DNA of 64,000 nt, taken from the NCBI RefSeq assembly GCF_009827545.1, contig NZ_WTYS01000001.1, positions 2,133,772 through 2,197,771 on the forward strand. The letters run 5' to 3'. How positions within the stretch are numbered: the first letter of the stretch is position 1; every line of letters starts with the position of its first letter. Below, in pieces: positions 15,205 through 62,202 of the stretch. Made by a program: the position numbers and the translations under genes. The stretch is from Pontixanthobacter gangjinensis. GTDB taxonomy: Bacteria > Pseudomonadota > Alphaproteobacteria > Sphingomonadales > Sphingomonadaceae. A model generated the notes under the pieces. It was given only the letters and a program-made list of their open reading frames with translations. It was not told where the DNA came from and ran no database searches.

Positions 15205-15221
15205 TACGGCAATTTACGTAG
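15205..15221 (+). promoter_or_regulatory. candidate FixJ box (exact) upstream of UspA gene
   Basis: TACGGCAATTTACGTAG is an exact match to the island motif [AC]GG-N4-TT[AG]CG[TG]A[GT]. A -10-like TATTCA is at 15243-15248, 21 bases after the box, so an activator here would overlap the -35 region. CCTAAGTAAG at 15185-15194 resembles the half-site seen at the fixK promoter. Confidence 0.6.
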
Positions 15222-15279
15222 TTGCGATTTCGCTGAGGCAACTATTCAAGCCTTGTGTTCTGACAGCGGTAAAAGCGAG

Positions 15280-16107
15280 ATGGTGATCATGCGTAGAATA
15301 CTCCTACACATCTACGACGATGAATGCTTCGAAGCGAGACTTCAGGTTGCACTTGACATTTCTCGGCGATTCAGCGGGCACCTCACCTGCATTCAGGCTG
15401 TACCGTATGACTATGGTGTGCCGAATGATTTCTATGGCACGATGGCCGCGCAAATGATCGTAGACTACGAACGGATCGCGAAGAAAGCCAAGGAGCAAAT
15501 TGAGGCTCGCTTGGCCAAAGAAGATGTACCGTGGAACTGGATCAAGGGCAGAGGCTCGGCGGCACTTGCGATCGCACATTACGCCCCTCTCCATGACTTG
15601 GTCGTTGTCGGTGCGCTCAACCCCGACGGAAAAGCGACCTCGCCCTCCCGCCTTGTGAGTGAGCTCCTCGAAAGAGTGCGGGCACCGATCCTGGTCGTGC
15701 CGAAAAGTCTCCGTTCGTTTGATTTGGATGGACCAGCGGCCGTCGCTTGGAACAATTCGGCCGAAAGCGCGCATGCGTTGCGCGCAGCTATGCCTGTGCT
15801 GAAGTTGGCCAGCTCTGTCCATGTATTGACTATCAGGGAGAAGAAGGAAGCTGGGCGCTTCGACTTGCCTTCCACCAAGGCGTCGGAGTACTTGGCCGAT
15901 GACGGTATCAAGAGCGAATTGACCGAGTTGCCAGAAGACGAATCGGCGTCAATTGCTGAAATATTGCTCGAAGCCGCCCAGGCACGTCAGGCCGGTTACA
16001 TCGTCATGGGAGCCTACGGCCACTCCCGCTTCAGGGAGAGAGTGCTCGGCGGTGTTACTCATGACATGCTGAAGGACCCTGCAATTCCTCTCCTGCTGTC
16101 GCATTGA
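15280..16107 (+). CDS. tandem universal stress protein (two UspA domains)
   Basis: Two Usp folds of about 140 residues each. The first begins MRRILLHIYDDE; the second covers the DGPAAVAWNNSAESAHALR half and ends with the ATP-binding signature MGAYGHSRFRERVLGG followed by the final strand ending PLLLSH. Such proteins are typical of oxygen-limited and stationary survival regulons. The start is ATG 15280 or 15289. It is a clear paralogue of the gene at 49559-50380. Expression is probably governed by the box at 15205-15221. Confidence 0.9.
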   Translation: MVIMRRILLHIYDDECFEARLQVALDISRRFSGHLTCIQAVPYDYGVPNDFYGTMAAQMIVDYERIAKKAKEQIEARLAKEDVPWNWIKGRGSAALAIAHYAPLHDLVVVGALNPDGKATSPSRLVSELLERVRAPILVVPKSLRSFDLDGPAAVAWNNSAESAHALRAAMPVLKLASSVHVLTIREKKEAGRFDLPSTKASEYLADDGIKSELTELPEDESASIAEILLEAAQARQAGYIVMGAYGHSRFRERVLGGVTHDMLKDPAIPLLLSH

Positions 16108-16290
16108 TAGTATGCGTGTTGGCAAGGGCCTAGGAGATACACTTGTTTCTTTGAGGTCGGTTCCGCAAACAGCATGATGATGACTGCGACAGGACAGAAG
16201 GCGCGCTTCTAGCAATCGCTTCTCACTATTTTGAAAATTCACTAATCCTGCCTCGACGCGATCTGCTGCGTCTTTGCGACACGCAAAAGC

Positions 16291-16554
16291 TCATTCTGCT
16301 TCCACTGGCTCAGCATCGACTGGCGCTGCTTCAGCCGGTGTATTGGTCATTCGCGCCTCCGGTAGATTGACTTCAACACCACCCTCGGGCCGGGAAGTCC
16401 ACTCGGATGATGGCGGAGTAGTCTCGACTTCGACGTCCGCGTTTTGTCCTTGGCTCTGAACCCAGAGATAAAAGGCTCCTGCAAACAGAATGACCAGACC
16501 CGCAACGATCCAGCCACTTCCTGACTTCCTGGATCCTCGTTCATCCGCTCCCAT
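16291..16554 (-). CDS. small single-pass membrane protein with acidic Pro/Glu tail
   Basis: ATG 16554 with AAGGAAG upstream gives 87 residues. A polar N-terminus (MGADERGSRKSG) is followed by one transmembrane helix at about residues 14-31 and then a 55-residue acidic, Pro/Ala/Glu-rich tail, predicted to be outside the membrane. No known domain is recognised. It lies inside the stress island between UspA and the decayed sulfur-transport genes. Its function is unknown. Confidence 0.6.
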   Translation of the reverse strand: MGADERGSRKSGSGWIVAGLVILFAGAFYLWVQSQGQNADVEVETTPPSSEWTSRPEGGVEVNLPEARMTNTPAEAAPVDAEPVEAE

Positions 16555-16685
16555 CGCACTTCCTTTCTCGCACATATAATAACTCCAGAGCGAAATAAGT
16601 CCGCTCAAACGCCTTCGAAATAGGTATTTTTCCTTAGATCGCGCGCGGAGCGTCTCACTCGATCCTCCCAATCTGCTCATGACAA

Positions 16686-17127: not shown

Positions 17128-17133
17128 TGAGCC

Positions 17134-17523
17134 TTATTCGAGTATGGGAAAAAGCGGGCCAGCAATGCAATGTTTTCTTACGCCGCAAACGCCGTGACCG
17201 CTGGTGCAACCGCTTCCCAAGCGCGTTTCAATGCCGACTAGCAATCTAACCAAAAGCATCACTGGCGGGCTGGCAAAGCTCACTTCAAGACCTCCAGAAG
17301 CCAACCCAACGACCATTGCGCCCAGCGGCAAGCCGACGAGAAAGATCCCGGCACTGGATTTGGACATACTGGAGTCGCTGAAACCCGTTGCGCGCGCGGT
17401 TATCCCAGACAACCCTGTGATACCTCCAGCATCCAAAAGCATCAGGGCGGCGACAAGGCTGATAAGGCCCCTCCGACCAGACCGGAAACTGGCGCTGCGT
17501 TTGGGAAATCGGACGGGCTCATA
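17134..17523 (-). pseudogene. remnant of YeeE/YedE sulfur-transport gene
   Basis: Begins with an ATG overlapping the stop of the MBL-fold gene (ATGA, about 17520-17523). The N-terminus (MSPSDFPNAAPVSGLVGGA) shifts frame near 17470 and continues as MLLDAGGITGLSGI through the hallmark ETRLGSGCTSGHGVCG, after which homology stops and the frame ends. The intact family has a second copy of the motif and is much longer. In many proteobacteria an MBL-fold sulfur hydrolase is followed by two YeeE/YedE genes; here that unit has decayed. Confidence 0.7.
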
Positions 17524-18451
17524 CTGCGTCCACCGGCAGCTTGAGGTAGGTCATTCCATTGTCGTCGGGAGGCGGCAAATGCCCGGCGCGCATATTGACC
17601 TGCACCGATGGGAGGATCAGCCGCGGCATGTCCAGCATCGCATCGCGCGCCTCGCGCATCCTCACGAACTCCTCTTCGGCAACGCCGTCATGGGCATGAA
17701 TATTGCTCTGGCGCTGGACTGCGACCGTCGTTTCCCAGGCATAATGCTGGCGCCCCTTCGGCAAATAGTCGTGGCACATGAAAAGCCGGGTCTGTGGCGG
17801 GAGGGCGAGAATGCGTTTTAGCGACCGGTACAACAGCCTTGCATCACCGCCGGGGAAGTCCGCCCTCGCCGTGCCGTAGTCTGGCATAAACATTGTGTCC
17901 CCGACAAACACCGATTCTCCGATCACATATGCGATGCAGGCTGGGGTATGTCCCGGCACGTGGAGAACGGTCACTGGCACCTCGCCAAGACCGAAGGTTT
18001 CGCCGTCGCGCAAGAGGACATCAAACTGCGATCCGTCCATCCGGAAATCGGGCTCCGCGTTGAACAGCTTGCCAAACACCTGCTGCACCGTCGTAATATG
18101 TTCGCCGATAGCCAGCTTTCCGCCAAGTTCGGCCTTGAAATAGGGTGCTGCCGATAGATGGTCGGCATGTGCATGGGTTTCCAGCAACCACGCCACTTCC
18201 AAAGCTTCCGACCTGATGAAATCGATAACGCGATCCGCAGAAGTATGTGAAGTGCGGCCGGAACTTGGATCAAAGTCCAGCACCGGATCGACGACCGCCG
18301 CCGTCTTGCTTGCCGCATCCCAGACCACATAGGTCACGGTGAAGGTCGCCTCGTCGAAAAAGCCTCGTACCTGGGGGCGGTAGGCATCATTGGTCAATGC
18401 TAGGGCTACCTGCTCTTGAGCAGCTATTAACGTCGGGTCACTATTGCCCAT
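17519..18451 (-). CDS. MBL-fold hydrolase of the Blh / persulfide dioxygenase-like group
   Basis: A metallo-beta-lactamase-fold enzyme of about 310 residues. Metal ligands are visible: THAHADH (HxHxDH), HVPGHTPACI, GDTMFMPDYGTARADFPGGD and the C-terminal MCHDY. The pattern matches Blh/ETHE1-like proteins that act on glutathione persulfide or related sulfane sulfur. ATG 18451 with GGAG upstream is chosen because the longer frame adds unrelated residues. Its stop overlaps the decayed yeeE, so it once led a sulfide-handling operon. A weaker FixJ-like box lies at 18547-18563. Confidence 0.87.
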   Translation of the reverse strand: MGNSDPTLIAAQEQVALALTNDAYRPQVRGFFDEATFTVTYVVWDAASKTAAVVDPVLDFDPSSGRTSHTSADRVIDFIRSEALEVAWLLETHAHADHLSAAPYFKAELGGKLAIGEHITTVQQVFGKLFNAEPDFRMDGSQFDVLLRDGETFGLGEVPVTVLHVPGHTPACIAYVIGESVFVGDTMFMPDYGTARADFPGGDARLLYRSLKRILALPPQTRLFMCHDYLPKGRQHYAWETTVAVQRQSNIHAHDGVAEEEFVRMREARDAMLDMPRLILPSVQVNMRAGHLPPPDDNGMTYLKLPVDAV

Positions 18452-18766
18452 AAATCTCTCCGACCTCCTCAGGATGCACTTAATCGTCTTTCGACAGGCA
18501 AAATCGGAAGCTAGAGCCGCTGCTTCTCTTGCGGGAATACGCAATTATCCGCAATGTCAGGACAGCAATCGCGATCACCTAAGGTCGATAATGATGCATG
18601 GGAAACAAGTCGGCCCGCGGCAAACCCTTGCTGAATTCATTGCCTTCCAGCAATGTCATGCCAAGTTCGCCGCGAGCCTATGCGAATGGATCACTGTTCG
18701 CTTTCGCTAACTCCCCATTCGACGAAATCTATTTGGCACGGGAAGTATGTAGTGACTTGACGGTCA
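18452..18766. other. intergenic region upstream of the MBL-fold gene
   Basis: About 315 bases without a gene. On the minus strand 18547-18563 reads GTCCTGACATTGCGGAT, two mismatches from the island motif, followed at once by a second TTGCGTAT half. At 18757-18770 TTGACGGTCATCAA is a perfect FNR/FixK-type dyad, but it overlaps the stop of the CBS gene and is over 300 bases from the next start, so its role is doubtful. Confidence 0.45.
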
Positions 18767-19186
18767 TCAAGCGTGATGTGCGGAAACCGCCTGCATCGTC
18801 TCGTTGCAAAGCGCGGGTGAGGACGCGGCCGCCAAATCCCCGATGCTTAGCATCCCAACCATCCGGCGAGCCTCGCTAATGACCGGAAGCCGCCTCACCT
18901 TGTGCTTTTCCATAAGATGAGCTGCCTGCTCCAAATCAGCCTCCTCGCTACAGAACAGGATTGGTTCGGACATAACGTCACGCGCGGTCAGGTGGATCGG
19001 ATCGCGTGCCTCGTCAAAACCACGGACGACGACATCGCGATCAGTTACCATTCCGATCAGCTTGTCGTTCTCTCCGACTGGTAAGGCCCCCACATCCTGC
19101 TCACGCATGATCTTGGCAATATCGGGCAATTGCATGTCGGGTGCTATCCAGACCGCATTCTCGTGCATTGCATCGCGTACTTTCAT
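18767..19186 (-). CDS. CBS-domain-pair protein
   Basis: A 139-residue protein made of two CBS motifs (about residues 7-60 and 70-125), with the typical MVTDRDVVVRG and VRRLPVISEARRMVGMLSIGDL strands. Stand-alone CBS pairs bind adenine nucleotides and act as energy sensors; the mycobacterial hypoxic-response protein Rv2626c/Hrp1 has the same architecture. ATG 19186 has a GGAGG site. An FNR/FixK-like dyad at 19242-19255 is at a distance suitable for activating this gene. It is divergent from fixK. Confidence 0.88.
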   Translation of the reverse strand: MKVRDAMHENAVWIAPDMQLPDIAKIMREQDVGALPVGENDKLIGMVTDRDVVVRGFDEARDPIHLTARDVMSEPILFCSEEADLEQAAHLMEKHKVRRLPVISEARRMVGMLSIGDLAAASSPALCNETMQAVSAHHA

Positions 19187-19275: not shown

Positions 19276-19292
19276 TAAGTAGGTTTACCGAT
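19276..19292 (+). promoter_or_regulatory. weak FixJ-like box upstream of fixK
   Basis: TAAGTAGGTTTACCGAT differs at two positions from the island motif but shares the CCTAAGTA start with 15185-15192 and resembles the TTAAGTAATTTCCC element known at rhizobial fixK promoters. It lies 62 bases before ATG 19354. Confidence 0.45.
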
Positions 19293-19353
19293 GCCCGTCC
19301 GTGCACCCTGCCCGTAGCGCTTGGAGTTCACCAATCAGGAGCCGCGCGAGCTG

Positions 19354-19986
19354 ATGCAAATGTTGAAGCACAACCTGTTCGAACAACGAACCATCGGAAT
19401 GCCTGCATCATGCGGAGAAACCCTTTTTCTTGAAGGCGAGCCCTGCGATGAAGTCTTCGAGATCAGGAAAGGCATGGCCCGCGCGGTCTCCATGTCACGC
19501 GAGGGGGAGCGGCAAATCCTTGCATTTTTCTTTCCCGGGGATTTCATTGGTCTTCCCCTTTCGCGGCACCACAGATATTCGGTCGAGGCTGTGACCGACC
19601 TCGTCCACGTTAGGCATTCAACCCAAAGATGGCAGGAATCGCTAGCGCGAACCTGCCAGGAAGATTCCTCCATGCTGAAGTCGGTGTGGCGGGAAGAGAA
19701 AGCCTTCATCGAGCGCGGACTGATCCTTGGCCGCGTAGGTGCTCTGGCCCGGCTGTCCGCCTTCCTCATCGTGCTGTCGAAACACTTGCCGACGGAACAT
19801 GGTCTTTGCGCTCTCGAGCTTCCGCAGACCGACATTGCATCCTACCTTGCGGCTTCACCGGAAACGGTCTGCCGCGGCCTCAAACGCCTGCGCGAGATGC
19901 AGATCATCGCCATGCCGCGAAGAGACCGTTTCGCAATCCAGTATCCGGCACGGCTCGAACTGCTCGCAGAAGGCATTTTGGCATGA
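19354..19986 (+). CDS. fixK: Crp/Fnr-family regulator, FixK-like
   Basis: An N-terminal cyclic-nucleotide-binding beta roll (GETLFLEGEPCDEVFEIRKG...RQILAFFFPGDFIGLP) is followed by the long dimer helix and a C-terminal winged helix (LPQTDIASYLAASPETVCRGLKRLRE). The recognition helix with E-T-V-x-R is that of FNR/FixK proteins binding TTGAT-N4-ATCAA. The N-terminal Cys cluster of oxygen-sensing FNR is absent, which points to FixK, normally switched on by FixJ. fixLJ lies 28 kb away in the same island. ATG 19354 is chosen; TTG 19321 has no ribosome site. Confidence 0.85.
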   Translation: MQMLKHNLFEQRTIGMPASCGETLFLEGEPCDEVFEIRKGMARAVSMSREGERQILAFFFPGDFIGLPLSRHHRYSVEAVTDLVHVRHSTQRWQESLARTCQEDSSMLKSVWREEKAFIERGLILGRVGALARLSAFLIVLSKHLPTEHGLCALELPQTDIASYLAASPETVCRGLKRLREMQIIAMPRRDRFAIQYPARLELLAEGILA

Positions 19987-19999
19987 CGAACGCGCCCCT

Positions 20000-20016
20000 C
20001 GCGGAAAATTACGTAT
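20000..20016 (+). promoter_or_regulatory. candidate FixJ box (exact) upstream of erythromycin esterase operon
   Basis: CGCGGAAAATTACGTAT matches the island motif exactly. It lies 14 bases after the fixK stop and 91 bases before ATG 20107; CATTCT at 20040-20045 could be the -10. Confidence 0.6.
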
Positions 20017-20106: not shown

Positions 20107-21435
20107 ATGACGATTCACCAACCAAATCTGGCGGCACGATCAGACGTCGCGGCAGAATTGCGTGCGCGAGCGGAACGCTTGGTCACGCCCGATAGTCCGA
20201 ATTTCGCGGTGCCTTTCGACCGCTATGGCGACGCGCGGCTCGTCCTGCTTGGAGAGGCAACACATGGCACGCACGAGTTCTACACCGCCCGTGCCGCAAT
20301 CTCGCGCCGGCTGATCGAACGCCACGGTTTCAACATCATCGCCTTGGAGGGCGACTGGCCCGATATCGCCCGGCTCGACGACTACGTGCGACACCGCGGC
20401 CCCCGCCCACGTCTGGGCGAACCTTTCGTTCGCTTCCCAACCTGGATGTGGCGAAATGAAGAAATGCTCGGCTTCGTCGACTGGTTGCGCGACCACAACA
20501 ATCGGCTGCCAGAAGAGGAGCGAGTCAGCCTACGTGGTCTGGATGTTTACAGTCTGAGCGAATCGATCCACGCCGTCATCGAATATCTCGATAGCCACGA
20601 CCCCCGGGCAGCAGAAAGAGCCCGTCGACGTTACGGCTGTATCACGCCATGGCAGGACGAGCCGCAACTCTATGGACATGCCGTCGAGCGCGGCCGTCAG
20701 ACGGCCAGTTGCGAGGATGCGGTGGTTGAGCAATTGCGGGACCTCCTCGCCCGTCGGGTGGATTGGGCGACGCAGGATGGCGAGGCATTCTTCGATGCGG
20801 AGCGCAACGCGCGGATCGTGCGCGCTGCCGAGCAATACTACCGTTCGATTTATCGCGGGGCTGCAGAAAGCTGGAACCTGCGTGACCGCCACATGTTCGA
20901 AACCCTCCAAACCTTGATGGCCCATCACGAGAATTCACGCGCTATCGTCTGGGCTCACAATTCTCATGTCGGCAATGCGGCCGCAACGGCGATGGGCTGG
21001 CGCGGAGAATTCAACATCGGTGAACTTGTGCGCACCGCCTATGGCGAGGATGCAGTACTTGTCGGCTTCGGGACCGATCGCGGCAGTGTCGCCGCCGCAG
21101 CAGACTGGGGAGCCGCCATGCAGGTCATGGATCTGCGCCCCGCCCGGTCGGACAGCTGGGAAGCGGCCTTCCGCGACGTTGGTGAAATGCGTTGTCTGGT
21201 TGACTGGCGTCGATCCGAAGACCGCGATCTAAGAGAAGCACTCTCTCAGGTCTTTCTAGAGCGCGCTGTAGGCGTCGTCTATCGGCCCGAGACCGAGCTC
21301 CTGAGCCACTATTTCCAATCTGCACTGGGCGAACAATTCGATGCCTTCGTATGGTTCGAGGAAACACGCGCGGTGACGCCGCTGGGTGCCGAACGACCCG
21401 ATGGCGTACCTGAAACCTGGCCCTACGGCCTCTAA
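20107..21435 (+). CDS. erythromycin esterase-family protein
   Basis: A 442-residue member of the Ere-like fold. The signature LLGEATHGTHEFYTARAAISRRLIE carries the conserved Glu-His pair, and IALEGDWPD and WAHNSHVGNA supply further active-site residues. Despite the name, most chromosomal members do not hydrolyse macrolides. A homologous domain is fused to a phosphoribosyltransferase in the mycobacterial dormancy protein Rv2030c; here the two are separate genes of one operon with a hydrolase between them. The next gene begins 12 bases after the stop. Biochemical activity is unknown. Confidence 0.85.
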   Translation: MTIHQPNLAARSDVAAELRARAERLVTPDSPNFAVPFDRYGDARLVLLGEATHGTHEFYTARAAISRRLIERHGFNIIALEGDWPDIARLDDYVRHRGPRPRLGEPFVRFPTWMWRNEEMLGFVDWLRDHNNRLPEEERVSLRGLDVYSLSESIHAVIEYLDSHDPRAAERARRRYGCITPWQDEPQLYGHAVERGRQTASCEDAVVEQLRDLLARRVDWATQDGEAFFDAERNARIVRAAEQYYRSIYRGAAESWNLRDRHMFETLQTLMAHHENSRAIVWAHNSHVGNAAATAMGWRGEFNIGELVRTAYGEDAVLVGFGTDRGSVAAAADWGAAMQVMDLRPARSDSWEAAFRDVGEMRCLVDWRRSEDRDLREALSQVFLERAVGVVYRPETELLSHYFQSALGEQFDAFVWFEETRAVTPLGAERPDGVPETWPYGL

Positions 21436-21447
21436 CGGAGTTGAAAG

Positions 21448-22104
21448 ATGGAGAATTCTGTTCTGGATTTTCACGAAGTTGTGCTGCCTGGTGATCCGCC
21501 GCTCCACGCTCTTCTAGGCGTACCGGTCGACGCGATGGGGCTCGTAATATTTGCGCATGGCAGCGGCAGCGGCAGATTGAGCCCGCGCAACGGCTATGTT
21601 GCGCAGCGCATGCGCGACATAGGGCTGGGAACCCTTTTGCTGGACCTGCTGTCGCCAGCTGAAGAAGTCGATCGCCGCAATGTTTTCGACATACCTTTGC
21701 TCGCCTCGCGGCTCGCCCGCGCAACCGATTGGGCGTCGGAATTAGAAGAAACGCGTGGATTGAAACCCGGCTACTTCGGTTCGAGTACAGGGGCTGGCGC
21801 AGCCCTGCGCGCCGCTGCGGGAGATGACCGTATCGCCGCCGTGGTATCGCGTGGCGGTCGTCCCGACCTCGCTGGCAAACCCGCACTGGCGGCTGTTGCC
21901 GCACCAACACTTTTCATCGTCGGTTCGCGCGACAATCAGGTTATCGAGCTCAACAAATTCGCGGCCTCTTCGCTACACTGTCCCCATGAGCTCGTGATTG
22001 TTCCTGGAGCCGGACACCTGTTCGAGGAACCAGGGACGCTCGACCGGGTTGTGGAGCTCGCCTGCGACTGGTTTCAGTTAAATTTTGAGGGTGCTACACC
22101 ATGA
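21448..22104 (+). CDS. alpha/beta hydrolase, dienelactone hydrolase-like
   Basis: An alpha/beta-hydrolase of 218 residues. The oxyanion segment LVIFAHGSGSGR is near residue 30, the nucleophile elbow is GYFGSSTGAG (near residue 110), the acid Asp is in IVGSRDNQVI and the His is in VPGAGHLFEEPG. The fold is complete. It has a GGAG-like ribosome site and ends overlapping the next gene (ATGA at 22101-22104), giving tight coupling with the phosphoribosyltransferase. The substrate is unknown; in related genomes this hydrolase is often fused to that transferase. Confidence 0.85.
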   Translation: MENSVLDFHEVVLPGDPPLHALLGVPVDAMGLVIFAHGSGSGRLSPRNGYVAQRMRDIGLGTLLLDLLSPAEEVDRRNVFDIPLLASRLARATDWASELEETRGLKPGYFGSSTGAGAALRAAAGDDRIAAVVSRGGRPDLAGKPALAAVAAPTLFIVGSRDNQVIELNKFAASSLHCPHELVIVPGAGHLFEEPGTLDRVVELACDWFQLNFEGATP

Positions 22105-22775
22105 GAAGTTCCTGGGCCTTCCGAGATCGGACCGAGGCCGGGCAAGCGCTGGCGGAGCGCTTGCAGGAGATGAGCCTGACCAACCCTGTAGTGCTCGCCC
22201 TCCCGCGCGGAGGGGTGCCAGTAGGCTATGAAGTCGCCAGAGCGCTGGCGGCGCCACTTGATGTCATCCTTGTCAGGAAAATCGGTGCACCTGGGCACGA
22301 GGAGTTCGGTATCGGTGCTGTCGTTGACGGTGCCGCGCCGCAGACGGTGATCGACGAAGCGGCAGCCCAAATGGCGGGAGCAACCCCCGATTACATACAG
22401 CGCAAGGTTGCAGAAGAGCTTGCTCTCATCGAACGCCGGCGGACCGCCTATCGGACAGGACCTCCCGTTTCCGTGACGGGGCGAACCGCTATCCTCGTTG
22501 ACGATGGCATCGCCACCGGTAATACCGCCCAGGTGGCGCTTCAGGCGCTCGCAGGCACCTCTCCAACACGGGTAGTACTCGCCGTTCCGGTCGCCCCGCG
22601 CGACACTTTAACCCGCCTGGGTGCCATGTGCGACGACATTGTCTGCCTCGCCGTTCCGGACCCGTTTCATGCAGTCGGCGCGCATTACCGCGATTTCGGC
22701 CAGACCAGCGACGCGGAGGTTATCCGCCTGCTCCAATTGGCACGTGATGATATGGCAAGCGCAACCCGACCCTAG
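22101..22775 (+). CDS. phosphoribosyltransferase-domain protein
   Basis: A type I PRTase fold of 224 residues. The PRPP loop is TAILVDDGIATGNTAQVAL; an early LALPRGGVPVGYEVA segment and the flexible loop are present. It resembles Rv0571c and the PRTase half of Rv2030c, both DosR-regulon proteins. Substrate base unknown; it does not look like apt, hpt or upp. It overlaps the hydrolase and converges on the PfkB gene 4 bases away. Confidence 0.85.
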   Translation: MRSSWAFRDRTEAGQALAERLQEMSLTNPVVLALPRGGVPVGYEVARALAAPLDVILVRKIGAPGHEEFGIGAVVDGAAPQTVIDEAAAQMAGATPDYIQRKVAEELALIERRRTAYRTGPPVSVTGRTAILVDDGIATGNTAQVALQALAGTSPTRVVLAVPVAPRDTLTRLGAMCDDIVCLAVPDPFHAVGAHYRDFGQTSDAEVIRLLQLARDDMASATRP

Positions 22776-50641: not shown

Positions 50642-50803
50642 TGGTCAGCGGAGAATTGCTGCAGGCCACAAAGAATGCACGGGTCGGATCTCTCGCTAGA
50701 ATCTAAGGAGCATCCCCTAAAGACCGATCGTGCAAATCCGCGGAAACTCGTACGCAGACCATATGCAAAGCCCAATTCTTGCGCCGACGAGGAAAGGATA
50801 ATC

Positions 50804-52967: not shown

Positions 52968-53411
52968 TCATGGCTCGTAGGCTGTGACGACCTTGACGAT
53001 GTCGTCGGTAGCCAGATTGACAACATCCTTGTCGATTTCTGCAATGATGCTTTTCCCAAGAGCCTGTGGGCAGTGCTTGCGAAAGGTGCCGAGGACTGAT
53101 GGTGCAGCGAGAACAATGACCGCCCCCCCCTCCCTCGCCTGAGTTTCGGACAGCGTGTCTACCGCATCGATTGCAAAGCGCTGCTCACCCTCTTCGTGCC
53201 AATCGGTATCGCCCACAGCACTGCGTCGCGGCCCAGAGCGGGAGAAGGAGCGGCCCGGACGATCTGTCCCCTGCAGTAACGTCCGTGGATTCTCTGCCGT
53301 ATGCTCCTCAATTGTCTCAAGAACAGGTCTCGGCACATCGCCCGCGTTGCGCATCAACAGCATCTTACCCCCATCGATGGCCATAACCAGCGTTCCATGT
53401 GCGATCTTCAT
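52968..53411 (-). CDS. host attachment-family protein (Host_attach)
   Basis: A 147-residue protein whose architecture and HTAENPRTLLQGTDRPGRSF motif match the host-attachment protein family first described in plant-associated bacteria. The C-terminal ALGKSIIAEIDKDVVNLATDDI is also typical. ATG 53411 with GGGAGAGG is the start. The family folds like peptide-release-factor-related proteins, and its role outside plant attachment is obscure; it is frequent in stress clusters. It is divergent from the acyl-CoA synthetase operon. Confidence 0.78.
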   Translation of the reverse strand: MKIAHGTLVMAIDGGKMLLMRNAGDVPRPVLETIEEHTAENPRTLLQGTDRPGRSFSRSGPRRSAVGDTDWHEEGEQRFAIDAVDTLSETQAREGGAVIVLAAPSVLGTFRKHCPQALGKSIIAEIDKDVVNLATDDIVKVVTAYEP

Positions 53412-53516
53412 ACGACCTCTCCCGTTTTCCTGAATGTCCAAACGCCAGATGACCTAGCCGGGAGGATGCTAATCGGCGCAAAGCAGGCGCTCACTAAGGA
53501 AAGCTCCTGATCTGCT

Positions 53517-53541: not shown

Positions 53542-53558
53542 TGCGGGACATTGCGTAG
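53542..53558 (+). promoter_or_regulatory. candidate FixJ box (exact) upstream of synthetase-PDH operon
   Basis: TGCGGGACATTGCGTAG matches the island motif exactly. It overlaps ATG 53551 of the longest synthetase frame, supporting the downstream start at 53674. Confidence 0.62.
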
Positions 53559-53673
53559 TTACTGCCGCCATACCCCTGCCGATGACAGCGTGACAGAGTG
53601 CCTGAAAACGGGGAGAGTTGGCTTGGCTTTTGCCACTATAATTAAACCGACATCCGCCAAACGGGCGGCGGTC

Positions 53674-55374
53674 ATGCGCGATTACGACATCGCCTCCGAG
53701 CAGTTAGGTTGGGATACCTTCCGATCTTGGCTCGATGCAGAGCCCGACAGCTGGCTAAACATCGCTCACGAGGCGGTAGATACCCATGTGATGCATGGCG
53801 GCGGAAGCAAGGAGGCCTTGCGCTGGTTCGGCAAGAATGGTGAACACCGATCGCTGACCTACGCCGATCTTGAGCACGAAACGGATCGGTTTGCACGCCT
53901 GCTCGCCGATCGCGGCTTCGGCAAAGGAACACGGGTCTTCTCATTGCTTGGCAGGGTGCCGGAGCTCTACTGCGCCGCGCTCGGCACGCTCAAGGTAGGT
54001 GGAATCTTCTGTCCGCTTTATTCCGCTTTCGGGCCGGAACCGATCCGGGCCCGCATGGAACTGGGCCGGGCCCAGGTGCTCCTCGTGAGTCCGCAGGACT
54101 ACAAGAAGAAAGTCGCCGAAGCTCGAGAAACGCTACCAGACCTCGAACTCGTTCTAGTCACACCAGGCGTTGATGAAGCGATCCCCGGCACTGTTGATCT
54201 GACCGAGGCACTGGACGCAACGCCCCCTGAATTCAAATGCGTCCAGACACTACCCGAAGATCCGGCCCTACTCCATTTCACAAGCGGCACGACGGGCAAA
54301 CCAAAGGGCGTGGTCCATGTCCACGAAGCCGTGGTGATGCACAATGCCACCGCGCGGCTCGCGCTCGACCTGAGGCCCGATGACGTGTTCTGGTGCACCG
54401 CCGACCCCGGCTGGGTCACTGGCACTTCCTACGGCATCATCGCACCGCTGTGCGTTGGTGCCACGCTGGTGATTGAGGAAGCAGAATTCGATGCGGAGCG
54501 CTGGTACTCGCTGCTTGAGCGGGAGCGAGTCACTATCTGGTACACTGCGCCCACTGCAATCAGACTGCTGATGCGTGCGGGCGCCGAGCTTGCACGTAAG
54601 CACGATCTTTCGCACCTGCATTTCCTTGCCAGCGTCGGAGAGCCACTCAACCCCGAAGCAGTGGTCTGGAGCAACGAGGTCTTCGGCATGCCTTTCCACG
54701 ATAACTGGTGGCAGAGCGAAACCGGCGGGATTATGATCGCCAACTACGCAGCAATGGACATCAAGCCTGGTTCGATGGGCAAACCGTTACCAGGCGTTGA
54801 AGCGGAGATTCTAGATGTCGGGGAAGATTGCGTGACGCCGATTACAGAACCGATGTCCCCCGGACATCTCGCCATTCGCAGCGGCTGGCCGTCAATGTTC
54901 CGTGACTATCTCGACCAGCACGAGCGCTACGAAAAATCGTTCCGCGATGGCTGGTACCTGACGGGCGATCTCGCGATGCGCGATGCCGATGGTTATTTCT
55001 GGTTCGTTGGGCGAGCCGACGATGTCATAAAGTCTGCCGGCCACCTGATCGGTCCCTTCGAAGTCGAGAGCGCTCTGGTCGAGCACCGGGCGGTGGCCGA
55101 GGCTGCGGTTATCGGCGTGCCGGACGAACGCGCGGGCGAAATGGTCAAGGCATTCGTAACGCTGAATGCCGGATACGCAGCCACCGATGATCTGATTAAG
55201 GAACTGCTCGGCCACGCACGTAAGAAGCTGGGCGCGGCGATCGCGCCGCGACAAATCGAAGTGCGCGAGGATCTTCCGCGGACGCGCTCAGGCAAGATCA
55301 TGCGGCGCCTGCTCAAAGCGCGCGAATTGGGCCTTCCGGAAGGCGACACCTCTACTCTGGAGGTACAAGCATGA
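53674..55374 (+). CDS. AMP-forming acyl-CoA synthetase (acetyl-CoA synthetase-like)
   Basis: Activates a short carboxylic acid, probably acetate, to its CoA thioester through an acyl-AMP. P-loop-like [19 protein letters not shown] (about residues 195-215), [10 protein letters not shown] and [30 protein letters not shown] are the A3-A8 motifs; the acetylatable lysine is in [13 protein letters not shown]. About 566 residues, shorter than housekeeping Acs. ATG 53674 is preferred as the longer frame overlaps the promoter box; TTG 53623 behind GGGGAGAG is an alternative. First gene of a five-gene overlapping operon. Confidence 0.88.
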
Positions 55375-56363
55375 GCAAAGCGGCACTCAAGGTTCGGCTG
55401 ACGCGCGAGCATTGCCGCACTCTGCTCCACCAGATGCTGCGCGTTCGCCGATTCGAGGAGAAATGCGCCGAGCTTTACACACAGGAAAAGATCCGCGGCT
55501 TCTTGCACCTTTACATTGGTCAGGAAGCGGTCGCGACCGGTGTCATGCAGGCGCTGGGTCCAGAGGACGCGGTCGTCGCCACTTATCGTGAGCACGGCCA
55601 TGCGTTACTCAAAGGTGTATCCGCCGAGGCGATCATGGCCGAAATGTACGGCAAGCAAGAAGGCTGCAGCCGCGGGCGAGGAGGCTCCATGCACCTATTT
55701 GACGCCAGGACGCGATTTTACGGAGGGAATGCCATCGTCGCGGGCGGATTGCCGATCGCAGTCGGCCTTGCCCTCGCCGACAAGCTAGCCGGCCGCCAGC
55801 GAGTGACAGCCTGCTTTTTTGGCGAAGGCGCCGCGGCCGAAGGAGAATTCCACGAAAGCCTCAACCTCGCAGCGCTGTGGCGGCTGCCTGTCCTGTTCGT
55901 GTGTGAAAACAACCTCTACGCGATGGGTACTGCGCTTGACCTGAGCGAATCCGAAACCAGTATCGCGGCCAAGGCGGCGTGCTACAGGATCGGTTCGGAA
56001 ACGGTCGACGGAATGGACGTTGTCGCCGTCGAAGTGGCCGCACGGCGCGCGATCGCCGCACTTCAGGAAGCTGGCGCGCCGCAATTCCTTGAGTGCCGGA
56101 CGTACCGCTTTCGTGCGCACTCGATGTACGATCCGCAGCTCTACCGCACCAAGGATGAGGTTGAGCAGTGGAAAGAACGCGGGCCGATCAAGCGGTTCCA
56201 GGAATGGGCGCTGGCGTCTGGTGAGCTCCACGCTAACGACGTGCACGAAATCGAAAAGGAAGTGGCGCTCGAGGTTGCCCAAGCGGTTGCCGTCGCCGAG
56301 GCCGGGACCTGGGAACCAGTCGAGCACCTGCTCCGGCACGTGGGAGCGGAGCAGAGGATATGA
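55371..56363 (+). CDS. pdhA: pyruvate dehydrogenase E1 alpha subunit
   Basis: Decarboxylates a 2-oxo acid on thiamine diphosphate. The TPP motif [31 protein letters not shown] (about residues 148-180) is complete, and the phosphorylation-loop region [19 protein letters not shown] is typical of PDH-type E1 alpha. 330 residues. It overlaps both neighbours by four bases (ATGA junctions). As an island copy with its own synthetase it is likely additional to the housekeeping complex, but its substrate, pyruvate or acetoin, is not certain. Confidence 0.88.
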
Positions 56364-57334
56364 CCCAAGTTTCCTATCGCGAAGCCGTACGCGGCGCCAT
56401 CCGCATGGCGATGCAGGCCGACGAGCGTGTCTTTTTGATGGGCGAGGATGTCGGCCACTATGGCGGCTGCTACGCCGTATCGCAGGGTCTGCTCGATGAA
56501 TTCGGGCCTGAGCGCATCCGTGACACCCCTCTTTCTGAAAGCGCCTTCACCGGGGCTGGTATCGGCGCCGCACTGGGAGGCATGCGCCCGATCGTCGAGG
56601 TCATGACGTGCAACTTCTCGCTGCTCTCGATCGACCAGATCATGAACAATGCGGCTACCATCCGGCACATGTCGGGCGGGCAGTTCACCGTGCCTGTGGT
56701 GATCCGCATGGCGACGGGTGGAGGCCGGCAATTGGCCGCGCAGCATTCGCACAGTCTAGAAGGCTGGTACGCGCATATTCCAGGCATCAGGGTGCTCGCC
56801 CCGGCCACGGTCGAAGATGCCGCCGGTATGCTGGCCCCGGCGCTCGATGATCCCGATCCGGTCCTGATTTTCGAAAACGCGCTGCTCTACAACGATACCG
56901 CCGATGTGGACGATGCAGTGGCGGTCGACATCGATCACGCCGTGATCCGCCGCGAAGGCAGCGACATCAGCTTGATTACCTATGGCGGTTCGCTCGGCAA
57001 GACGCTGGCTGCTGCCGAAGAACTGGCTGCGCAGGACATCTCCGCCGAAGTCCTCGACCTTCGCATTCTGCGCCCGCTCGACGAGGCGGCGATTCTGGCA
57101 ACCGTCTCCAAGACGCAGCGCTGCGTCATTGTGGACGAAGGATGGCGATCCGGCAGCCTCGCGGCGGAAATCATGGCCCGAATTATCGAACACGCCTTCT
57201 GGACACTCGACGCCCCGCTGGCACGCGTGTGCAGTGAAGAGGTGCCGGTACCATACGCACGGCATCTGGAAGAAGCGGCGCTGCCCAGCACGGAGAAGAT
57301 AGTCGCTGCTGCGCTTGCGGTGCTGGGCCGGTAA
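56360..57334 (+). CDS. pdhB: pyruvate dehydrogenase E1 beta subunit
   Basis: Partner of the E1 alpha subunit in an alpha2beta2 E1. Conserved [48 protein letters not shown] and [24 protein letters not shown] segments are visible, with [18 protein letters not shown] at the C-terminus. 324 residues; unlike many alphaproteobacterial PdhB proteins it carries no N-terminal lipoyl domain. It starts overlapping E1 alpha; the E2 gene begins two bases after its stop. Confidence 0.9.
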
Positions 57335-57336
57335 CC

Positions 57337-58503
57337 ATGGGCACCTTCGTTATGCCCTCGCTCGGTGCCGACATGGCAGCAGGGACTTTGGTCGAATGGC
57401 TGAAACAGCCGGGCGATACGGTGGAACATGGCGACATCATTGCCGTGGTGGAAACCGACAAGGGTGCCATCGAGGTCGAAGTCTTCGAAAAGGGCCGCAT
57501 CGACGAACTGCTGGTCGAAGCTGGTAGCGCGGTCCCGGTCGGCACCCCACTCGCTCGGATCGACGGCGAGGCGAACGGGGTAAAGCCGTCCGCCACGGGA
57601 CCCGCGAAACCGAAGGTCGGGACGGAGCCGGTTCGCGCGACCCCGCCTCGCCCATCCGCTCTCCTTGTTATGAAGGGCCAAGGTCCGCGCGCCTCACCCG
57701 CCGCACGGCAACACGCCGCCGAGCGCGGGATCGACCTTGCCTCGCTGGCCGGAAGCGGACCGGACGGCGCGATCCAACTTGTCGATGTCGAACGGGCTGA
57801 ATGCATTCGGTCCGAACCTGGGCTGGGCTCAGGCCCTGACCTGTCCGCCATGCGCCGCGCCATTGCGGCAGCCATGGCGCGGTCCAAGCGCGAGATCCCG
57901 CATTACTATCTATCTCACCGGTTCGATCTCTCGGCCGCTCTCGAATGGCTTGAGCGCTATAATGCCGAGCGCCCGCCGCCCGAGCGGCTGCTTCTTGGTG
58001 CGCTGCAGATTAAGGCGGTGGCTAGTGCTTTGAAGGAATTCCCGGAGTTCAACGGTTTCTACGGCGAGGAAGGCTTCTCTCCATTCCCCGCAGTCCATCT
58101 CGGCACCGCGATCGCGATCAGGGGCGGCGGGCTGGCCGCGCCCTGTATCCGGCACACTGATACCCTCACCCTTAGCGACCTGATGGAAAGCTTGCGCGAC
58201 CTTGTCGCACGCACGCGGCGCGGCCAGTTCCGCTCATCGGAAATCGCCGATGCAACAGCGACTGTTTCCAATCTTGGCGAGCGGGGCGTCGAAAGCCTGT
58301 GGCCTGTCATCTACCCGCCGCAAGTGGCGATCGTAGGCTTTGGCAGCGTAATGTGGCGACCCTGGGCCGTGAAGGACGAGCCCGTTGTGCGCCCCGTCAT
58401 CACCACCACACTGGCGGGCGACCACCGCGCAAACAACGGGCACCGCGGCGCGCTCCTACTAAGGCGCATCGAGCAGATCCTATCAGAACCGGACAAGCTA
58501 TGA
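57337..58503 (+). CDS. 2-oxo acid dehydrogenase E2 acyltransferase with altered active site
   Basis: One lipoyl domain at the N-terminus (lipoylated K42 in VETDKGAIEV), a Pro/Ala linker, a peripheral subunit-binding domain (SPAARQHAAERGIDLASLAG, about 110-145) and a catalytic CAT domain from about 165. Near the end the normal DHRxxDG active-site motif reads DHRANNG (about residues 362-368): the His is kept but the catalytic Asp is Asn. The shortness (388 residues) fits a single-lipoyl E2. No E3 gene follows. The acyl-carrier-like gene overlaps its stop (ATGA). Confidence 0.87.
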   Translation: MGTFVMPSLGADMAAGTLVEWLKQPGDTVEHGDIIAVVETDKGAIEVEVFEKGRIDELLVEAGSAVPVGTPLARIDGEANGVKPSATGPAKPKVGTEPVRATPPRPSALLVMKGQGPRASPAARQHAAERGIDLASLAGSGPDGAIQLVDVERAECIRSEPGLGSGPDLSAMRRAIAAAMARSKREIPHYYLSHRFDLSAALEWLERYNAERPPPERLLLGALQIKAVASALKEFPEFNGFYGEEGFSPFPAVHLGTAIAIRGGGLAAPCIRHTDTLTLSDLMESLRDLVARTRRGQFRSSEIADATATVSNLGERGVESLWPVIYPPQVAIVGFGSVMWRPWAVKDEPVVRPVITTTLAGDHRANNGHRGALLLRRIEQILSEPDKL

Positions 58504-58783: not shown

Positions 58784-59083
58784 ATGAATGCAAAGCACAC
58801 TGATCCGACAGTTATCGCTGCCGCCACGTTCGCAGGATTGATAGGTCTTTTTCTAGTCGCTCGGTCGCGAACTCGGTCTGGCGGGGGGGCTAATATGCGG
58901 GAGCGGGCCATGCGCAGAATGCTCAGATCCATGCCCGACGACGCTCCACCGCGGCTTGTCGCAGGGATCCTGCCCAAATTGCAGGAACAGAACACCCAAA
59001 TTCTTGCGCTGCTCGAGAACCAAACACGTCTGATCGAAGCCATCATCGCATCACCACCCGTTGATCGTGATGCCAAAAACTAG
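58784..59083 (+). CDS. small membrane-anchored protein, unknown
   Basis: A 99-residue protein with one N-terminal helix (VIAAATFAGLIGLFLVA, residues 10-26), a basic stretch (RERAMRRMLRSMP) and a C-terminal amphipathic, coiled-coil-like segment (LPKLQEQNTQILALLENQTRLIEAI). GAGG and an 8-base spacing precede ATG 58784. Probably the last gene of the synthetase-PDH operon, 32 bases after the carrier protein. No family recognised. Confidence 0.62.
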   Translation: MNAKHTDPTVIAAATFAGLIGLFLVARSRTRSGGGANMRERAMRRMLRSMPDDAPPRLVAGILPKLQEQNTQILALLENQTRLIEAIIASPPVDRDAKN

Positions 59084-59147
59084 AGATTTGGCTGCTGGTC
59101 GTGTCGGTGACAGCAATGGGTGGCCGTAGATGGATTTGGCGACCGGC

Positions 59148-59176: not shown

Positions 59177-59311
59177 CTAAGTCTCGCCAATCTCTTGGCT
59201 TCGGGTCGCATTGAGATCTATCGCCCTTCTTCTCGCTTCAGTATCTAGGTAAATGTCCGTAGCCCGTCGCACGACGGTCCCGGATCCACGACCGAGCATG
59301 GTCGGGCTAGT

Positions 59312-60076
59312 TCAGAAGAACTTGCCTGCAAGCCAATACATGGTCGTGGCCGTAAGGACCGTGCCGACGATCACCAGCATCGCGGAAGCAGGGAGATATT
59401 TCGCTGCGAGCGCGCCAAACGGAGCGGCAAGCACTCCGCCCAAAAGCAATCCCAGCGTCGTGGCAGTAAATTCTTCGAGCCCCAGATGCAGGAGGAATGC
59501 TGCCGAAATCGCGATCGCCACGAAGAACTCCGCAGCATTGACTGAGCCCACCACCTTGCGCGGCTCGATGCCTTGGAGCATGAGACCGGAACTGACAACC
59601 GGTCCCCATCCTCCTCCGCCTACCGCATCAAGAATACCGCCGAGAAGCCCCAGCGGTATCGCGCCTTTAGGGCTTTGTGGGCGCGTGTTTCTGCGCAGCC
59701 CCTTGCCGATGAGCAAGACGCCAAGCAAGCCAAGATAGGCAAATATGAAGGGCTTGATGGCCTCACCGTCAAGACTCGCCAAACCGTATGCTCCGATCAC
59801 ACCGCCCACAACTCCCGCAGGCAGAACAAGCAAAAATAGTCGTTTGTCGATATTCCCGCTGAAAGCGTGGCTAATGCCAGATGCAGCTGTTGTGAAACAC
59901 TTCACGAGGTGGATTTGGTAGGATGCGCGCGCGGGGGTCACTCCCATGACACCGACCAGCAAGGCCGAGGCGATCGCCCCGAAGGCCATACCAAGAGCAC
60001 CATCGATCAGTTGCGCGAAAAAGCCGATTGCGACAAACGGCAGAGCTGCCTGCCAATCAACGCCGAATATCTCCAA
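59312..60076 (-). CDS. TauE/SafE-family sulfite/anion exporter
   Basis: An inner-membrane permease of about 254 residues with seven to eight helices. The first motif GFFAQLIDGALGMAFGAIAS and the second GGILDAVGGGGWGPVVSSGLML are the two inverted halves typical of TauE/SafE (DUF81). TTG 60076 with GGGAG six bases upstream is chosen; the longer frame to 60160 adds a polar Cys-rich stretch unlike the family. TACGTA half-sites occur upstream. Substrate (sulfite, sulfonate or other) unknown. Confidence 0.82.
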   Translation of the reverse strand: MEIFGVDWQAALPFVAIGFFAQLIDGALGMAFGAIASALLVGVMGVTPARASYQIHLVKCFTTAASGISHAFSGNIDKRLFLLVLPAGVVGGVIGAYGLASLDGEAIKPFIFAYLGLLGVLLIGKGLRRNTRPQSPKGAIPLGLLGGILDAVGGGGWGPVVSSGLMLQGIEPRKVVGSVNAAEFFVAIAISAAFLLHLGLEEFTATTLGLLLGGVLAAPFGALAAKYLPASAMLVIVGTVLTATTMYWLAGKFF

Positions 60077-60184
60077 AAACGTTCTCCCTGCCAAGGCAAG
60101 GACTTGTGTGCAGTGAGATGGATCGCATGAATATACGTAGTCTGTCGTGTTTGCATACAAGAGCGCTAAACGAGAATAAGCGCC

Positions 60185-60823
60185 TCAGTCGGCTGCAAAA
60201 AGCAGTCTGCCCGGCCCCAGCAATTCGAGAACCCCTCCGATCTCCGAGAGCTCGAAAGCAAAGCACCCCAAACTGCGGCCAACGCGTCCCTGTAATTCGG
60301 CCATGGTTCGGTCGACATACCCAGCGCCATGAATAACGATAGCGCGTTGGAATGCCTGGTCGTTTGCCTCATCGAGACCATGCAAACGCCGCGAGCGACC
60401 ATGCTTGCCGACGTAGGCATCGCCGGTCAGGTAACTTCCATTCGACGATGCATGCGAGCCGGGTCGATTAGAGAATCGCGTCGCATAGCCGCTGTTGTCA
60501 GGGTCCGAACCCCGCCCATGCGAAACCAACAACGAACGCAGGATGCTTCCGCCTTCGATATCCGCGACATGAAAGCGGGTCTTGCCTGAATGCTTGGCAA
60601 AGTCGACCAGGCCAATGCGATCGCGATAGGTGAAGTGAGCGGAATGGCGATCCAACGCTGCAAGTGCCTTCTGCAAAAGCGGCGGCTCGGCTGCCAGCCG
60701 CGTTTCCGGCGGATGATTGAGCGGAGTGTTCACCTTCCTCGGCGAGGATAAGGATGCAGGTGCAATGAGCGAAGCCGAGGCGGCAATTGTCGCACCAAGA
60801 AAATGACGGCGGTCTAGTTTCAT
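60185..60823 (-). CDS. exported L,D-transpeptidase-like murein enzyme (YkuD_2 family)
   Basis: A 212-residue protein with a Tat-type leader (DRRHFLGATIAASASLIAPAS). The catalytic motif is HGAGYVD...GRSLGCFAF with the Cys near residue 187, as in the YkuD_2 murein L,D-transpeptidase catalytic family, often annotated as hypothetical. It would act on peptidoglycan in the periplasm. It is divergent from the second L,D-transpeptidase gene, 65 bases away, suggesting joint control of cell-wall 3-3 crosslinking. Confidence 0.82.
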   Translation of the reverse strand: MKLDRRHFLGATIAASASLIAPASLSSPRKVNTPLNHPPETRLAAEPPLLQKALAALDRHSAHFTYRDRIGLVDFAKHSGKTRFHVADIEGGSILRSLLVSHGRGSDPDNSGYATRFSNRPGSHASSNGSYLTGDAYVGKHGRSRRLHGLDEANDQAFQRAIVIHGAGYVDRTMAELQGRVGRSLGCFAFELSEIGGVLELLGPGRLLFAAD

Positions 60824-60888
60824 ATCGTAAAGAGCATTAATATGCTGGCAGATGTGGGTACGGGAACCCTGAAAGGCAAGGTGACGCA

Positions 60889-62139
60889 GTGTTGGCGAAG
60901 AGTAATCGAGCCCTTCTGGCAGCGCTCACCTTGATCGCTTGTCAGGTTCCTGGAGCGGCCCATGATAGCGGCGAGAGGTGGTCGAACGCAAACCTCGCAA
61001 CGCTAGATCGATGGATTGAGGCAGCTCCGCTCGACGCCTTGCCGCCGGTCTCGAAAAACGCGCTCGATCAGGCGAGAAATTCGAGAGTCCCGGGACGTAT
61101 CGACGAAGAGGCGGACCGCTTGGCGCTGCGGCTCGCGAGAATGCACCTTCTGGGTGCCGCCAACCACTCTGGACGGGCAGGCTGGAATATCAACGATACT
61201 GATGCGAATCTTCCTCTCGATACTATGCTGGCACGCGGCCTCGCTGATGGGAACCTTGATACATTTTTCGCGCTGATGCGCCCTGCCCACCAAGAGTACG
61301 CCGCACTGAGGTCGGCCTACCAAGTCGAACCTGACGTCCAGCACAAGCGGACGATCGCACGTAACATGGAGCGCTGGCGTTGGATGCCCCGTTCGCTAGG
61401 CAAGAATTACGTCCTCGTGAATATCGTCGGATACGAGGCAAGCCTATGGCGCGAAGCCAAGCTCGTCGATCACTGGCGCGTCATCATCGGTAAGCGGAGC
61501 ACGCCCACTCCCGTGTTCGAGACCCAGATCGAAGGGGTTATTCTCAATCCGTGGTGGGATATTCCTGCCAGCATTGTTCGCGAGAGCGTAGGTGCACTTG
61601 TCAGACGCAACCCATCCCTAGCCCGTGCGCGCGGCTATGTCTGGAGCGGCGGGCGCTATCGCCAACGCCCAGGGCCGAACAATGCCCTCGGCCAGATGAA
61701 GCTGGTCATGCCCAACCGCTTCTCCGTCTTCATGCACGACACCCCGAACAAGCAATTGTTCGAGGAGGACGTGCGATCTTTCAGTCATGGCTGCATCCGC
61801 ACCGATGATGCGATCGGCTATGCGGCGACGCTGTTGCAAGACATCAAGACCCGCGAAGAGATCGATGTCATTCTTGCCTCGGGGCAAACGACACAAATCG
61901 AGATTGGAAAACCGCTGCCCCTTTATGTGACCTATTTCACTGCGGTCAGCGACGGGTTAGGCCGCGTCAAACTGCTCGACGATCTTTACGACAGGGACCG
62001 GCGGATTGCCGTCCCAGCATCACTGGCAATTGTCGACAACTATGCAGCCGATGATGCGCTCTCGCTTCTCCGCGCCAGCTACGGAGAGTCAGCTGCCACA
62101 CAGGATGCGAATCGCTCGATATCCGACATCGAGTGCTGA
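60889..62139 (+). CDS. L,D-transpeptidase, YcbB/LdtD-like
   Basis: A periplasmic transpeptidase of 416 residues. Signal peptide ALLAALTLIACQVPGAAH at the N-terminus, a YcbB-type middle region (RNMERWRWMPRSLGKNYVLVNI) and the catalytic YkuD motif SFSHGCIRTDDAI (Cys near residue 302). It lacks the N-terminal peptidoglycan-binding domain of full LdtD. The GTG start at 60889 has AAGG upstream. 3-3 crosslinks made by such enzymes are typical of resting cells. Confidence 0.88.
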   Translation: MLAKSNRALLAALTLIACQVPGAAHDSGERWSNANLATLDRWIEAAPLDALPPVSKNALDQARNSRVPGRIDEEADRLALRLARMHLLGAANHSGRAGWNINDTDANLPLDTMLARGLADGNLDTFFALMRPAHQEYAALRSAYQVEPDVQHKRTIARNMERWRWMPRSLGKNYVLVNIVGYEASLWREAKLVDHWRVIIGKRSTPTPVFETQIEGVILNPWWDIPASIVRESVGALVRRNPSLARARGYVWSGGRYRQRPGPNNALGQMKLVMPNRFSVFMHDTPNKQLFEEDVRSFSHGCIRTDDAIGYAATLLQDIKTREEIDVILASGQTTQIEIGKPLPLYVTYFTAVSDGLGRVKLLDDLYDRDRRIAVPASLAIVDNYAADDALSLLRASYGESAATQDANRSISDIEC

Positions 62140-62185
62140 GTCAGCCTAGGCCATAAACGACTGTATCGCTCCAGACTCTGCGCAA

Positions 62186-62202
62186 TACGGACCTATGCGT
62201 AT
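62186..62202 (+). promoter_or_regulatory. FixJ-like box (one mismatch) upstream of hydrogenase operon
   Basis: TACGGACCTATGCGTAT differs from the island motif at one T. It lies 71 bases before ATG 62273, in the same arrangement as the other boxes. Confidence 0.5.

Follow-up and report, generated by a model that had tools for sequence, protein, structure and literature searches.

Candidate FixJ operators before the genes of a stress and metabolism island in Pontixanthobacter gangjinensis

Organisation of the island

A stretch of 64 kb from the Pontixanthobacter gangjinensis genome (contig NZ_WTYS01000001.1, positions 2,133,772 to 2,197,771), called the window below, was analysed around a short recurrent word, MGGNNNNTTRCGKAK, for which an earlier note on this DNA had proposed FixJ as the natural binder. 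The word belongs to a 16-bp dyad found before genes of a 47-kb island, among which lie a sensor kinase and a response regulator. Gene models are our own choice of open reading frames (ORFs) by length and third-position GC and not an annotation.

47231-48415, plus strand: FixL-type heme-PAS histidine kinase, assigned by domain families and PAS alignment to solved FixL
48402-49022, plus strand: FixJ-type response regulator, assigned by receiver and GerE domains and by alignments to 1x3u and 5xso

The kinase gene directly precedes fixJ. Its PAS domain aligns to that of the solved FixL and keeps the heme-ligand histidine together with a distal arginine, while another heme-pocket arginine is a histidine here. 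The regulator combines a receiver with a LuxR/GerE domain and its phospho-acceptor aspartate, D56, is invariant in 19 sequences. Its DNA-binding part aligns with 1x3u, deposited as FixJ, at an E value of 2.9e-20, and the recognition-helix stretch SPRTVEIHRANLMAKL shows three differences from 1x3u, all conservative. At E 1e-25 the genome holds one close FixJ homologue, which is inside the dyad array.

The array comprises thirteen FixJ-type dyads, given with their scores on the matrix of the window sites (a 20-mer with a 16-bp core) and, where it applies, with the finding for the ortholog in a relative, genome G041.

15205-15220, plus strand: before a universal stress protein (Usp) gene, 15253-16107 plus; score 23.0; G041 ortholog with a site
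18538-18553, minus strand: before a metallo-beta-lactamase-fold gene related to Blh, 17519-18544 minus; score 23.9; exact match
20000-20015, plus strand: before erythromycin-esterase, DLH-like and phosphoribosyltransferase genes, 20107-22775 plus; score 24.1
35459-35474, minus strand: perfect arms, before a gene row for Usp, a 2740-aa GH94 protein, PPDK and PfkB, 35388 to 22780 minus; score 21.9
35485-35500, plus strand: before a Na/Ca-exchanger-family gene, 35606-36640 plus; score 19.8
36666-36681, plus strand: before ABC, FtsX and HlyD genes, 36718-40984 plus; score 21.7
44828-44843, minus strand: before a small conserved ORF, 44266-44772 minus, and a CtpF-like cation ATPase gene, 41625-44540 minus; score 18.0
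44893-44908, plus strand: before an ABC ATPase gene, 44908-45810 plus, whose true start is probably nearer 45103; score 20.0
47065-47080, minus strand: between hsp20 (HSP20 family, 46514-47002 minus) and fixL (47231 plus); score 23.1; in G041 the hsp20 and fixL orthologs each have their own upstream site
49481-49496, plus strand: before a Usp gene, 49526-50380 plus; score 21.9
50626-50641, minus strand: in the gap before 50675-51979 plus, opposite to the direction of that gene; score 22.1; G041 ortholog with a site
53542-53557, plus strand: before genes for an acyl/acetyl-CoA-synthetase-like protein and dehydrogenase E1 alpha, E1 beta and E2, 53551-58503 plus; score 18.7; site of 21.9 at the G041 ortholog of the synthetase-like gene
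62186-62201, plus strand: before a 4Fe-4S protein gene, 62273-63418 plus; score 21.5; no G041 ortholog at E 1e-20

Number and placement of the word

In the window MGGNNNNTTRCGKAK has 10 exact matches, a number which none of 100 shuffles reaches, against 0.54 expected (about 0.5 in the earlier note); with at most one mismatch, 33 matches are found against 12.9 expected. All twelve sites first reported, nine exact and three with one mismatch, are present, and a tenth exact match at 18537-18551 (minus strand) had been missed. On the whole genome (2,888,119 bases in one contig) the word has 35 exact matches and its backwards-read control pattern 31, so that the word is at background level outside the island, and 10 of the 35 fall within 38.4 kb of the window (15.2-53.6 kb). 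Among the 25 matches outside the island, 20 were inspected: 16 are inside reading frames that stay open for at least 198 codons and four in shorter frames. Scattering through coding DNA, which the earlier note had named as evidence against an operator, is found outside the island only and at the control rate. One exact match there, at L018:1501-1515, falls in intergenic DNA from which the genes for a bicarbonate transporter and for a lipoyl-synthase-like radical SAM protein diverge.

Matrix matches of at least 12.5 number 17 in the window, none of them before position 15,204, in agreement with the earlier remark that the first 14 kb hold no sites. Elsewhere in the genome, thirteen stretches of 20 kb (260 kb in sum, with three that flank the window) contain six such matches and their reversed control ten; by density of matches in the window and in these 260 kb, the edges of the island are sharp. 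Chance as origin of the cluster was rejected by the window, genome-wide and 260-kb counts.

Many copies in one region with background elsewhere in the genome could also be the mark of a repeat element or of a composition artefact, with no operator involved. The copies, on the other hand, are alike in the dyad and little alike in their flanks, they precede genes, and the word recurs beside fixJ in other genomes with shuffled gene order, which leaves that explanation hardly credible.

Architecture of the dyad

The word forms part of an inverted repeat of 16 bp, TNMGGR-N4-TNCGKA, whose two arms measure 6 bp each with a spacer of 4 bp between them. The 15-bp word initially described is thus real but incomplete, and the 17-bp coordinates given with it begin two bases earlier, at the edge of the dyad. 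Over the 13 sites the arms pair at 47 of 78 positions, which falls to between 10 and 18 when the right arm is shifted by 1-3 bases, and at 35459-35474 all six positions pair. All 13 sites have [AC]GG and, further right, T, CG and a final A. At -2 there is a T in 11 sites, and a purine follows [AC]GG in 12; the next four bases are rather free, one variable base separates T from CG, and G or T stands between CG and the final A. A 15-bp direct word as the unit was rejected, since by the arm-pairing test the dyad accounts for the sites better.

The S. meliloti FixJ site TAAGTAATTTCCCTTA, attributed to Kurashima-Ito 2005 in PMC4999443 (papers are cited here from excerpts), has the same layout as the window dyads. 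On the 16-bp matrix core it scores 17.5, a value reached by 0.0094% of window positions, and the 13 window sites score 15.6-21.6. At the level of sequence, the dyads thus fit an experimentally determined FixJ site. Three other words were rejected as the same site by their core-matrix scores, namely the DosR word (-2.3), the FxkR word (-18.2) and the FNR word (-11.9).

Position relative to genes and predicted promoters

Most sites stand, as the earlier note claimed for all, before a gene that runs in their own direction. For 18537, 44895 and 53544 this holds only if the true start is inside the longest ORF; protein alignments of the three with relatives start at residues 30, 66 and 29, in line with later starts, and the true start of the metallo-beta-lactamase-fold gene (17519-18544, minus strand) is probably nearer 18457.

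For hexamers resembling a -10 element, previously placed 20-24 bases behind several sites, the best-scoring distances from the 20-mer in the window are 20 and 21 nt downstream; the signal is modest, and sites 44825 and 53541 have no -10-like hexamer worth the name. In relatives the best distance is 20 nt for oriented sites and 22 nt in the opposite direction. With a hexamer starting at -12, the centre of the dyad would be near -43, in partial agreement with the S. meliloti FixJ footprints at -69/-44 and -57/-31 (PMC4999443).

A dyad so placed would overlap the -35 region, as a repressor site might, and unphosphorylated FixJ is described as repressing nifHDK in R. palustris (PMC13327599); FixJ could accordingly bind the dyads as a repressor or with mixed sign. 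We consider this unlikely, as a centre near -43 before -10-like hexamers fits class II activation and FixJ-P activates fixK in the literature as excerpted.

FixJ-type sites around fixJ in relatives

The relatives are the best 80 of 584 loci from a FixJ search, mainly of sphingomonads and 1.52 Mb in total. They contain 94 matrix matches of at least 14 compared with seven in reversed sequence, and 50 of the 80 loci have a match of at least 13 compared with 12 in the control. While gene models cover 87.5% of the loci, 66 of the 94 matches are intergenic, 20 lie within a model at most 120 nt from its start, two near an end and six in coding sequence; the reversed-control matches are coding in six cases and near a model end in one. 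Stretches around fixJ in 19 genomes of the family gave 64 matches of at least 12.5 and nine in reverse.

Matches in relatives were found with the window matrix, so their logo is biased; a matrix-free count of paired 4-mers in the intergenic DNA of the 80 loci is unbiased, but its loci were chosen by FixJ. In this count TTACGTAG, the strong half of the matrix, ranks first with 25 occurrences against 0.73, and TTGA-N6-TCAA has 26 against 2.4. TTACGTA[GA] has 51 matches in these loci (palindromic ones counted twice), none deeper than 30 nt inside a model, and stands directly behind fixJ in 20 of the 80.

Among the genes associated with sites in relatives are receiver-only proteins like FixT (L112, L130) and a Crp-type regulator behind fixJ (L113). 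A Pfam tally, which covered 80 of the 89 site-associated genes (the nine others are minus-strand frames at the fixJ end), found Usp in 12 of 80 against four of 80 controls, HSP20 in six against at most one, and receiver genes in nine against four; kinase domains near fixJ did not differ (seven and eight). In L171, nearly perfect dyads at 2998-3020 and 8329-8351, e.g. TACGCA-N4-TGCGTA and TACGTA-N4-TACGTA, lie between divergent genes and are possibly the strongest FixJ sites.

The enrichment of the matrix beside fixJ in many relatives bears on whether the dyads could belong to another regulator of the NarL/LuxR type, with FixJ reaching the island only through fixK. Three of the four GerE-domain proteins of the genome are encoded outside the window, and NarL-type words resemble the dyads in their 7-2-7 layout and reach 8.2 on the core matrix. 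Against this stand that enrichment and the fit of the S. meliloti FixJ site itself to the matrix. As to the fixK route, the window has a single perfect TTGA-N6-TCAA box, for which reason FixK boxes fail to account for the island and were rejected as its switch. Another regulator is quite unlikely in our view. The box itself, of the FNR/FixK type, is at 18757-18770.

Conservation of the site-gene pairing

The FixJ of G041 is 63% identical to that of the window, and the 80 kb around its gene hold orthologs of many island genes in a changed order, with 15 matrix matches against one in reverse. Each of the 12 orthologous starts listed there is preceded by a site at no more than 300 bp. When sites are placed at random in intergenic DNA, this is true of 2.9 starts on average and of nine at most, 12 being reached in none of 20,000 trials; circular shifts reach 12 in 23 of 20,000, all of them between -61 and +69 bases, and shifts of at least 300 bases give at most four. 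The 12 starts were listed by hand; they include fixL and the 46431 gene, units which in the window use the common hsp20 site, and omit the esterase, metallo-beta-lactamase and Fe-S genes. The esterase ortholog, about 625 kb from fixJ in G041, has a 12.8 site some 140 bp upstream of its aligned start.

In L102 the CtpF pair of small ORF and ATPase has a 25.0 site upstream. FixJ is present in 13 of 15 esterase carriers and 12 of 13 carriers of a CtpF-like gene (Fisher 0.014 and 0.004, relatedness uncorrected). Genomes negative for FixJ had a site at none of three orthologs (two esterase, one CtpF).

Further candidate sites and neighbouring genes

Three more dyads of lower score were noted in the window.

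16621-16636, minus strand: further candidate dyad near short minus-strand putative ORFs; score 17.3
53495-53510, minus strand: further candidate dyad before ORF 52968-53441 minus; score 13.0; the G041 ortholog of this ORF shares the 21.9 site with the synthetase gene
19276-19291, plus strand: weak candidate dyad before a FixK/FNR-type gene, 19321-19986 plus; core score 8.1, 20-mer score 9.2; in relatives a site lies within 420 bp in 7 of 10 loci having a similar gene

The 2740-aa protein in the row behind dyad 35459-35474 (26114-34336, minus strand) combines GH94, glucoamylase and glycosyltransferase parts and is cyclic-glucan-synthase-like. The 50675-51979 (plus strand) product matched no Pfam family; it carries repeats before several hydrophobic stretches and is 46% identical to its G041 counterpart. 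No Pfam family was found either for the small ORF 44266-44772 (minus strand), which is matched in 11 of the 80 loci of relatives with a site upstream in four of these.

Proposed regulation of the island

We hold it very probable that the dyad is the FixJ operator and that FixL and FixJ, at low oxygen, directly activate about 13 promoters of the 47-kb island. FixJ as the binder, already the candidate of the earlier note, is supported by the score of the S. meliloti site, the recognition helix, the enrichment beside fixJ, the matrix-free count and the clustering round the sole close homologue, and stands as a prediction. In the proposed mechanism, the heme-PAS kinase FixL would sense low oxygen and phosphorylate FixJ, a dimer of which would bind the 16-bp dyad, centred near -43, over the -35 region. 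FixJ would so activate the 13 or so promoters directly and not via fixK alone, the targets being universal stress proteins, Hsp20, a Ca-type ATPase, the erythromycin-esterase/phosphoribosyltransferase operon, the PPDK/glucan operon and the acyl-CoA-synthetase/dehydrogenase operon. Observed are the motif with its dyad geometry, its clustering and its position outside coding DNA, its enrichment beside fixJ in relatives, its fit to the S. meliloti site and the conserved heme ligand; what we infer is that FixJ binds, that it activates and does not repress, that oxygen is the signal, and what the physiological role is. The products, which include stress proteins, a chaperone, ion pumps, exporters and enzymes rerouting carbon and energy, suggest survival of oxygen limitation.

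Several observations weigh against this reading. Within the window, a 17.3-bit dyad at 59246-59261 (minus strand) lies between the apparently convergent 58784-59083 (plus strand) and 59312-60160 (minus strand) and has no evident target. The site at 50625-50639 (minus strand) has no plausible minus-strand gene in its own direction, an exception to the orientation first claimed; its target is likely 50675 (plus strand), an orientation allowed by the dyad. The NCBIfam equivalog cut-offs for naming were missed by FixJ (246.9 of 255 bits) and by FixL (402.3 of 850, a rhizobial model), for which reason the labels FixJ-type and FixL-type are used. In G041 the metallo-beta-lactamase ortholog has no site of at least 12.5. 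In other FixJ-positive genomes, newly checked erythromycin-esterase orthologs had a site in one of ten (G011, equalled in one of 100 shuffles) and CtpF orthologs in none of three, a set that leaves out seven weaker CtpF-like carriers. Across the 80 loci, most other island orthologs have no site of at least 12.5 within 420 bp upstream, the counts being 0 of 7 for the ABC gene at 36718, 1 of 19 for CtpF and 6 of 79 for FixL. Finally, among 59 genomes of the family the word exceeds its control only in this one (14 against 5), with 135 against 156 in other FixJ-positive and 68 against 95 in FixJ-negative genomes.

In G037, of the same genus, FixJ, CtpF, esterase and the lactamase-fold gene were not found at the thresholds used. 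The variation of sites among orthologs and the lack of matches to these genes in G037 point to an accessory island and a lineage-specific regulon. In broader terms, we think it rather probable that FixJ in sphingomonads is a direct master regulator of an anoxic-survival regulon like those of DosR and lxa, built anew in each lineage by gain of dyads, and not mainly a switch for fixK. If so, such regulons could be read from genome sequence through the dyad grammar. The 13 window sites, with the many more in relatives, provide a matrix fit for use and allow a direct regulon to be predicted.

Comparison with known systems

As in the FixLJ systems of S. meliloti, Bradyrhizobium, Caulobacter and R. 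palustris, a FixL-type heme-PAS kinase adjoins a FixJ-type regulator here. The 16-bp dyad resembles TAAGTAATTTCCCTTA, imperfect palindromes being known in Rhizobiales and Caulobacterales (PMC4999443), and GTACGTAG of the R. palustris fixK promoter (PMC13327599) is one base off TTACGTAG. A published reconstruction gives four direct FixJ targets in Rhizobiales (nifA, fixK, fixX and SMc03253), fixK alone in Caulobacterales and, in its excerpted part, no FixJ profile for Sphingomonadales (PMC4999443). Published regulons, as excerpted, are small and act mainly via FixK, whereas here the dyad is present at about 13 promoters in an island of stress and metabolism genes. Among titles and abstract openings, in a search with most subscription journals outside it, none was found on many FixJ sites over such an island. 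Related genes are reported elsewhere: in B. diazoefficiens microoxia induces Usp and phosphofructokinase-type genes (PMC6515984), and in Sphingopyxis granuli a Usp gene is under an Fnr box (PMC7713065).

The lxa locus of Burkholderia cenocepacia likewise unites several universal stress proteins, a heat-shock/alpha-crystallin protein and a phosphofructokinase (PMC6127331); clustered in our island are three Usp-domain proteins (of five in the genome), HSP20 and PfkB. Its likeness in content to the DosR regulon is already in print, and the central regulator proposed for it is the CRP/FixK-type BCAM0049 (PMC6127331), whereas the island here, compared by gene content and not by sequence, holds FixLJ, FixJ-type dyads and one perfect FixK box.

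The DosR regulon of mycobacteria differs in its operator, as the score of the DosR word indicates. It shares a heme kinase with a NarL/FixJ-family regulator and, as kinds of product, Usp, HspX, CtpF, PfkB and an erythromycin-esterase/phosphoribosyltransferase protein (PMC4410610, PMC4082495), a likeness drawn from Pfam families and papers and not from mycobacterial sequences. With this window, a heme kinase and a regulator of the NarL/FixJ family stand over a set of Usp, Hsp20, CtpF and PfkB genes outside mycobacteria as well, and the independent assembly of dormancy sets becomes testable.

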